Source of the DNA: Aurantimicrobium minutum | GTDB lineage: Bacteria > Actinomycetota > Actinomycetes > Actinomycetales > Microbacteriaceae | DNA length: 64,000 bases | Direction of reading: 5' to 3' | Assembly (NCBI RefSeq): GCF_029892845.1 | Contig: NZ_JARXVT010000004.1 | Span: 62,001 to 126,000 of the forward strand | Shown here: one piece after another, positions 32,401 to 34,757 of the stretch | How positions within the stretch are numbered: the stretch's first letter is position 1 | Layout: every line of letters starts with the position of its first letter | Position numbers and translations under genes: made by a program | Notes under the pieces: generated by a model | What the model was told of the DNA's origin: nothing | What the model saw: the letters and a program-made list of their open reading frames with translations, nothing else | Databases searched by the model: none

Positions 32401-32757
32401 TCTCAGCTGGGCTTCAAGATTGTGGCTACTGAGGGCACAGCAGAGATTCTTCAGCGCAACGGTATCCCAGCAACCATCATCGGTAAGGTCAGCGCCAAGT
32501 TAGGCGATGACACCATCGTTGAGCTCATCAACCGCAACGAAGTAGACATTGTGATCAACACTCCCAGTGGATCAGCTGCTCGTGCAGATGGTTACGAAAT
32601 CCGCGCATCAGCTATTGCCGCAGACAAGCCTTTGTTCACCAATATGGCTCAGGTCAGTGCAGCTGTTGCTTCTATCGACACAATCCGCGAAGGTTTTGAT
32701 GTGTGCAGTTTGCAGGAATACGCCATCAAGCGTCGTGAGGCTCTGGCTCGAGCATGA
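29467..32757 (+). CDS. carB: Carbamoyl-phosphate synthase large subunit
   Basis: CarB makes carbamoyl phosphate from bicarbonate, ammonia and two ATP, feeding both pyrimidine and arginine synthesis. The 1096-residue protein has two homologous ATP-grasp halves ([22 protein letters not shown] and [21 protein letters not shown] mark their starts near residues 10 and 555) and a C-terminal MGS-like allosteric domain ([24 protein letters not shown]). Long open frames on its minus strand are shadows. pyrF follows by ATGA overlap. Confidence 0.98.
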
Positions 32758-33605
32758 GTGAACTAGGTTTCGGAGACCGACTCCAGACTGCCTTTGGGCA
32801 GTTTGGTCACCTCTGTGTCGGTATTGATCCCCATCCCTTTCTCTTGAATGAGTGGGAATTCGATGACACCTCCGTCAGCCTTCGTGAGTTTTCCCTCCGC
32901 GTAATCGATGCCTGCGTTGGCCAGGTAGGGATTATCAAGCCACAGGTTGCTTTCTATGAACGCCATGGTGCCAAGGGGATGGACGCTCTCGAATACGTCA
33001 TTCGCCGTGCTCGTGATGCTGGATTGATTGTCATTTCCGACTGCAAACGTGGAGATATCGGCAGCACCATGGAGGCCTATGCTCAGGCTTGGCTCACTCC
33101 CGGTTGGAATCTCGAATCAGATGCCATCACAGTGAGTCCTTACCTGGGCTCTGGAGCCCTCTCTCAAACTGTTGACTATGCCTTGTCTCACAACAAGGGT
33201 GTCTTTATTCTCGCTGCGACCAGTAATCCTGAAGCAGCGGTACTTCAGACAGCTCAAGTGACTCAAGGTATTCATCAAGGGAAGACCGTTGCCTCAGCAA
33301 TGCTGAGCGATGTTGCACGATGGGCAACTGAAGCTACACCAGCCAACTCGGTGGGAGCTGTATTGGGTGCGACACTAGACCTTCCTGCTTTGGGTATTCA
33401 ACCTGATGACTATCCCGCGCTTCCTGTACTTGCCCCAGGTTTTGGTTTCCAAGGTGCTCGCGTTGAGGATGCTCGTCGTTTGTTTGGAAACCTGTCGACC
33501 AATCTGATCGTGTCTGAAACCAGGAGTGTCCTCTCTGCAGGCCGTGAAGGTGTTGTGGAAGCAGTCACTCGTCGTGCTGGAGAGGTTGCTTCCGCTCTTG
33601 CCTAA
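32754..33605 (+). CDS. pyrF: Orotidine 5'-phosphate decarboxylase, type 2
   Basis: PyrF decarboxylates OMP to UMP, the end of the pathway. The 283-residue length and the catalytic motif [18 protein letters not shown] (Asp-Lys pair plus second Asp) are of the longer PyrF-2 subfamily of actinobacteria. Other visible parts are [25 protein letters not shown], and [18 protein letters not shown]. Missing pyr genes (pyrD, pyrE) are not in this window. The next gene starts five bases after the stop. Confidence 0.96.
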
Positions 33606-33609
33606 CATC

Positions 33610-34497
33610 ATGCCCGAGGTCGACCGCCGCGCAGCTGCGCAGGCGGGAGTCGTCGCGCGTCGCAAACGCGCTGCCATCAAAGCAGATGTTTTTGAAGGCC
33701 GCCGTTCTGCTCTTGATGTGTTCGTTGTGGCATCAATAGATCCCTCTTCCTCCGAAGCTACTCTGAGAGTGACTGACTTCCTGAAGTCCCTGCGCGGTGT
33801 GGGAGCGAACAAGATTCCACGCATTCTGGAGGATCTTGACATTTCTCCTCGAAAGCGTCTGGGGGGTTTGGGCAAACACCAACGTGTGGGATTGCGTAAA
33901 TGGATTGTGGCTTATCAGTCAAAGCGCAGTGAATCTTGGTCGCCCAAGGCTGTCGTGCTCGTTGGACCTTCAGGGGTCGGCAAAGGAACTGTTGTTAACC
34001 ACATAGTTCGCAACCACCCTCAGGTACACCTATCTATTTCTGCTACGACTCGCGATCCACGACCTGGTGAAGTCGATGGGGTCAATTATTACTTCATAGA
34101 TCACGGTGAATTTGACGCCATGATTTATTCGGAAGCACTCCTTGAGTGGGCTGAAGTTCATGGACAGAACAAATATGGAACACCACGTGGTCCAATCGAA
34201 AGTGCCCTTTCTCAGGGGCGAAGTGTCCTGTTCGAGATTGATTTACAGGGTGCACGTCAAATTCGCGAAACAATGCCTGAGGCCAGACTTGTTTTCCTTC
34301 TTCCTCCAGATTGGGACGAACTAGTTCGTCGTTTACGTGAGCGTGGAACAGAGTCAGAAGAAGAGATCAAACGCCGGCTTGAAACTGCATTTGGTGAATT
34401 GGCTGCCAAAGATGAATTCGACGTTCGGGTAATTAACCGAGACGTCACCGAAGCTGCCCAACAGGTCGTAGACTTAATGGGACTTATCAAGGAGTAA
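33610..34497 (+). CDS. gmk: Fusion of actinobacterial integration host factor (mIHF) and guanylate kinase
   Basis: From ATG 33610 the protein has 295 residues in one frame. Residues 1 to about 104 look like mIHF, the nucleoid-associated DNA-binding protein: an Ala/Arg helix ([19 protein letters not shown]), then [32 protein letters not shown] (helix-two-turn-helix type). Residues 113-295 are guanylate kinase with P-loop GPSGVGKGT (119-127), [19 protein letters not shown] and [15 protein letters not shown]. Elsewhere, as in Mycobacterium, the two are neighbouring separate genes. Guanylate kinase phosphorylates GMP/dGMP. Both halves look intact, so the fusion is probably functional. Confidence 0.93.
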
Positions 34498-34499
34498 TA

Positions 34500-34757
34500 A
34501 TGGCTACAAAGCTTGAAGGCATCATCAACCCACCTATCGACGACCTGCTCTCGAAGGTTGAATCTAAGTACGCATTGGTTATCTTTGCATCCAAGCGTGC
34601 TCGCCAGATCAACGACTACTACTCCGACCTTCACGAAGGAAGCCTCTTCGACAACGTTGGACCCCTCGTTGACTCCAACATCGACGACAAGCCTCTCTCC
34701 GTTGCTATGCACGAAATCAACGAAGACAAGCTAATCGCTCGTCCACTGTCGGCCTAA
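34500..34757 (+). CDS. rpoZ: DNA-directed RNA polymerase subunit omega
   Basis: Omega helps fold and assemble the beta' subunit. The 85-residue protein has [31 protein letters not shown] (typical opening, conserved SKYALVIxxxKRARQI) and the [16 protein letters not shown] tail. It lies two bases after gmk and 20 bases before coaBC, the standard actinobacterial order. Confidence 0.96.

Follow-up and report, generated by a model that had tools for sequence, protein, structure and literature searches.

The guanylate kinase fold occurs within a multidomain protein in the eukaryotic MAGUK family, whose GK domains serve as scaffolds instead of phosphorylating GMP. Bacterial guanylate kinase (Gmk), an essential enzyme, starts a few residues before its first strand. 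The actinobacterial IHF proteins (mIHF, Rv1388; sIHF, SCO1480) are small and stand-alone. In M. tuberculosis, mIHF is an essential nucleoid protein, and deletion of mihF required gmk and rpoZ in trans owing to polar effects (PMC6155035), which fits co-transcription of the pyrF-mihF-gmk-rpoZ cluster. Gmk forms dimers in those bacteria for which this was tested; in multiple phyla it is bound at the active site and inhibited by (p)ppGpp, the inhibition depending on dimer contacts (PMC6783271).

The window, that is, the whole 64,000-nucleotide stretch of Aurantimicrobium minutum DNA analysed here, encodes a protein in which these two families are joined. With actinobacterial IHF it shares the fold, the lid helix, the H2TH core, the core basic residues and the genomic place upstream of gmk, but it adds a C-terminal Gmk and has several flanking lysines changed. 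The kinase domain is full, about 50% identical to the M. tuberculosis enzyme (Rv1389, PDB 1s4q) and followed by rpoZ, whereas its first strand is preceded by ~110 residues made up of a DNA-binding domain and a linker. Unlike the MAGUK proteins, the fusion keeps all catalytic residues and has a DNA-binding domain as partner, and no common origin of the two architectures is implied. What is new is the combination: both families are known, and the system as such is of no new kind. The preliminary description knew of no functional account, and our literature search likewise found no paper on an mIHF-Gmk fusion; NCBI types NF041260 as a domain model, so curators may know fused forms.

Architecture of the fused gene

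The gene lies in the order carB, pyrF, mIHF-gmk, rpoZ, coaBC, metK, and its features and immediate neighbours are as follows.

32754..33605, + strand: pyrF (orotidine-5'-phosphate decarboxylase; TIGR02127, 274 bits), ending 4 nt before the fusion ATG
33610..34497, + strand: mIHF-guanylate kinase fusion gene, 295 aa, a single open frame with two domain matches
33622..33900, + strand: actinobacterial-type IHF domain (mIHF/sIHF), residues ~5-97 (NF041260, H2TH_5), with lid helix 3-29 and S13-like H2TH core
33901..33942, + strand: variable linker, residues ~98-111, with low pLDDT and the fastest evolution
33943..34479, + strand: guanylate kinase domain, residues ~112-290, with P-loop G119-T127 (TIGR03263; nearest PDB 1s4q)
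34500..34757, + strand: rpoZ (RNA polymerase omega), starting 2 nt after the fusion stop, identified from synteny

The frame runs for 295 codons from the ATG at 33610 to the TAA ending at 34497 without an internal stop. Both domains were recovered by hmmscan, with borders at residues 5-96 and 114-289 and the P-loop at 119-127, bearing out the uninterrupted frame, the coordinates and the domain borders of the preliminary description. The rpoZ candidate gave no match in an NCBIfam search at 1e-20, and a promoter scan returned one site only, below the chance mean. Six of the seven other genomes of the genus carry this fusion as well, neither domain being seen in the seventh (G001, a 190-contig assembly). 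Its recurrence in these congeners and in nearly all Microbacteriaceae indicates that it is neither a chance event nor an assembly slip.

The kinase half matches TIGR03263 with 227.6 bits at residues 114-289 (model positions 3-177 of 180; cut-off 160.45), and M. tuberculosis Gmk (1s4q) is the nearest PDB structure to this part of the model. Residues G119, G124, K125, S144, R148, R151, E154, Y160, E179, Y189, T191, D211, R241 and R256, which we take to be the P-loop and the GMP/ATP-binding and catalytic residues of GMP kinases, are invariant in both an 18-row and a 46-row alignment. The fusion thus carries a complete kinase, which is most likely active.

The IHF half matches Pfam H2TH_5 at residues 50-95 (34.8 bits; cut-off 27) and falls just under the NCBIfam NF041260 cut-off of 60 (59.8 bits at residues 5-96), a cut-off exceeded by a match in 169 of 200 Microbacteriaceae genomes. 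Its sequence matches in the PDB are mIHF 6tob (2.7e-7) and sIHF 4itq/6bek (2.2e-6). An AF2 model of the isolated domain (pLDDT 90.8) shows the lid helix plus S13-like H2TH core that define the sIHF/mIHF fold; its nearest structure is DNA-bound sIHF 6bek (rmsd 1.5, TM 0.88 by target length), then 4itq, with sIHF-DNA complexes at TM 0.83-0.88 by target length and mIHF 6tob next. Structure prediction for the whole chain gives an sIHF-like fold followed by a Gmk fold (mean pLDDT 89.4), separated by a weak block (65) at linker residues 101-110. With a pTM of 0.66 and this weak linker, the model does not fix how the two domains lie with respect to each other.

Distribution and origins of the fusion

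An IHF match was found in 185 of 200 Microbacteriaceae genomes, at least one of which (G020) is really ribosomal protein S13, and all of the matches listed for the family lie in open frames of at least 283 aa. For 45 distinct sequences a single frame was directly seen to encode both domains. The best 80 named loci, most of them matching in one stretch that starts at residue 1 or 2 and reaches about 290, come from Clavibacter, Leifsonia, Cryobacterium, Curtobacterium, Microbacterium, Agromyces, Leucobacter, Subtercola, Pseudoclavibacter, Agrococcus and others. The fusion is therefore the rule in Microbacteriaceae, as the preliminary description had suspected, and is the ancestral state of the family. 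One apparent split (L055 in G016) consists of overlapping frames and is probably a frameshift error in a genome that is 86% complete and 5% contaminated.

Elsewhere in the order, the remaining families have mihF and gmk as two neighbouring genes (21 loci). The fused and split loci are orthologous by synteny with gmk and rpoZ alongside, pyrF having the same place in both types within the order and rpoZ adjoining gmk in nearly all loci examined. Nearly every genome surveyed across the phylum has mIHF (137 of 149), and besides the window genome no IHF match in this survey lay in a frame of Gmk-fusion length except in one unrelated protein. Among 14 long mIHF frames from other actinobacteria, 13 stop directly behind the IHF domain, and wherever gmk was seen it occupied a different frame. 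The remaining one (L259, G454:C12:1089885-1090151), from another class, is a different protein, in which an IHF-like domain forms the C-terminal end of a 709-aa frame that by eye is partly Toprim- or JetD-like; it would be a second type of fusion involving an IHF domain. In the class, gmk was found without any mIHF in families f4 and f23 and in parts of f51 (L064, L065, L099, L101, L100, L103, L108, L109).

Fusions also occur in two further lineages. In f44, a family of the same class with genomes of 1.2-2.2 Mb, the IHF domain lies in frames of at least 291 aa in 36 of 40 genomes, 31 distinct sequences being seen fused and four split; the mix fits both gain and loss, which cannot be told apart. 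In f51, two of the 11 IHF-bearing genomes are fused. A tree of the combined IHF and Gmk columns places the Microbacteriaceae fusions in one clade (100/100) and those of f44 and f51 elsewhere, and a single origin was rejected (log-likelihood lower by 121, AU p=1.3e-5). The fusion hence arose at least three times, in Microbacteriaceae, f44 and f51.

In split relatives mihF and gmk are near each other and many overlap as ATGA (e.g. L136, L079, L164, L078), pointing to translational coupling. Given this closeness, a small indel at the junction would have been enough to join them, and we infer that two adjacent, often ATGA-overlapping genes of the pyrF-mihF-gmk-rpoZ cluster merged in this way.

The genome to which the window belongs (G000; 1.76 Mb in 12 contigs, with a completeness of 99.96%) was searched for a second mIHF, which, with an internal start, the preliminary description had named as the evidence that would speak against its reading. 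None was found, the only other match having E=0.096 and 31% identity. The locus of that match, L002, was not recognised by the IHF profile, and its longest frames are unlike mIHF. No match to Lsr2 was obtained in this genome and HU is present once, so that two of these three families are represented, HU and, in fused form, mIHF. Ribosomal protein S13 (rpsM) gives a weak match to the mIHF profile and may pass for an additional mIHF; the weak matches in G020 and G012 (L263 1-1401, L264 1-1501) are of this type, with rpsM beside rpsK.

Constraint and divergence in the IHF half

We consider it fairly probable that the product is a single protein with two functions, in which an active GMP kinase is tied by a flexible linker to an mIHF domain that still binds DNA. 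Seven core basic positions shared with stand-alone mIHFs (R17, R20, K24, R53, K68, K82 and R83 in window numbering) are K or R in 96-100% of 45 Microbacteriaceae fusions, in which glycines 65, 86 and 88 are kept in 91-100%. The mean net charge of the IHF half is +8.6 in Microbacteriaceae fusions vs +5.4 in relatives of the order that have the two genes separate. Between near relatives, dN/dS is 0.02-0.37 for the IHF half and 0.02-0.19 for Gmk, over pairs with computable dS and with many dS values saturated; the linker (10-27 aa long in relatives) is mostly the quickest of the three parts to change. The kept basic residues and the sIHF-like fold together support retained DNA binding and make a DNA-tethered kinase, one of the two possibilities raised in the preliminary description, plausible.

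The IHF half has nevertheless diverged in ways that count against a bifunctional protein. Microbacteriaceae have lost some of the basic positions found in stand-alone mIHF (alignment columns 14, 30, 66 and 81), several lysines among them, and residue 85, which we take to align with mIHF Arg173, has changed from R to G; arginines of the mIHF motif aligned with residues 82-85 reportedly contact DNA. The ratio of IHF to Gmk rates reaches 1.88 in Microbacteriaceae, while f44 fusions have 1.56 and split pairs 1.46-1.72 (1.46 for those of the order). Relative to Gmk, the IHF half of Microbacteriaceae is thus evolving somewhat faster under purifying selection, and is not in free drift.

It could be argued from this divergence that the IHF half is no longer a nucleoid protein and serves Gmk as a solubility, folding or RNA/ribosome-binding appendage built on an S13-type H2TH core. 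Such an appendage would fit the low profile scores of the Microbacteriaceae fusions (about 50-83 bits vs 115-149 for stand-alone mIHF of the order), the lost lysines, the weak profile cross-match to ribosomal S13 and the absence of the IHF half from some lineages. We nonetheless judge it unlikely, since the core basic residues are kept, net charge is not lower and purifying selection is strong; sIHF-DNA complexes are also the best fold matches, with S13 structures far behind, and the fused domain of f44 scores like stand-alone mIHF (up to 134 bits).

Possible coupling, loss and products of the fused chain

Under a bifunctional protein, the kinase and DNA-binding activities would be largely independent, the IHF arm carrying Gmk onto the nucleoid. 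Two arms per dimer would be expected because Gmk is dimeric in the species tested, and would make a two-handed DNA binder or bridger. A stronger proposal is functional coupling, in which GMP, GDP or ppGpp at the kinase site alters DNA binding, or DNA alters the kinase, making a nucleotide-sensing nucleoid protein. The retention of three independent fusions across whole clades suggests more than accident, and the dimer-dependent inhibition of Gmk by (p)ppGpp offers a sensing route in principle (PMC6783271). Against this, the linker is variable and modelled with low confidence, no conserved interface was seen, and adjacent overlapping genes fuse readily without functional gain.

Natural losses bear on the same question. 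The Microbacteriaceae genera g11, g14, g339, g330 and g325 have gmk without the IHF part (L061, L063, L145-L148, L150-L155), and the rest of their genomes yielded no IHF either, those of g339 and g325 being only 59-84% complete. The Gmk domain begins within about 25 nt of pyrF in g11, g14 and g339 and at a somewhat larger distance in g330 and g325, with rpoZ still following. The Gmk tree nests these genes, moderately supported, among the fused ones, which implies at least two losses after fusion. The IHF half is therefore not always needed, and its clean loss with the kinase unchanged in place means that the kinase does not require it, which argues against obligatory coupling for kinase activity. 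Coupling accordingly seems to us an improbable account, and the analysis gave no direct support to the tie between nucleoid binding and GMP/GDP levels suggested in the preliminary description.

More specific still is a nucleotide-responsive nucleoid protein, evolved three times, in which the two mIHF arms of a Gmk dimer bridge DNA with a grip set by GMP, GDP or ppGpp. A Gmk dimer with (p)ppGpp at the active site makes a two-armed, possibly ligand-responsive DNA binder conceivable, although we regard the full proposal as a long shot; if true, chromosome compaction would be linked to the guanine-nucleotide state.

It is very doubtful that the fusion exists at gene level only, with separate proteins still made by internal initiation or linker cleavage: the window has a GTG at or beside Val115 with AAGG upstream, but GTG and site are absent from the near relatives L048 and L052 and initiation there would cut into the first Gmk strand, while across Microbacteriaceae no start upstream of the Gmk domain is conserved (in-frame junction ATG in 4 of 46 sequences, any start with a 4-base ribosome-site match in 7 of 46). 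Eight of the 32 f44 fusions (L114-L116 and others) do have an in-frame ATG at one place, some 10 codons ahead of the Gmk domain, and extra free Gmk is possible in that part of the family.

The single bifunctional chain thus remains our preferred reading, and would amount to a nucleoid-located GMP kinase with the mIHF:Gmk dose fixed at 1:1. The lineages without the IHF half form a natural control, making any role of nucleoid binding in guanine-nucleotide metabolism directly testable. One chain serves for a nucleoid protein and a nucleotide enzyme across a whole family and in two further lineages. Should its DNA-binding half be functional, each molecule of GMP kinase in these cells could be located on the chromosome, and a nucleoid protein would be locked in quantity to a metabolic enzyme.
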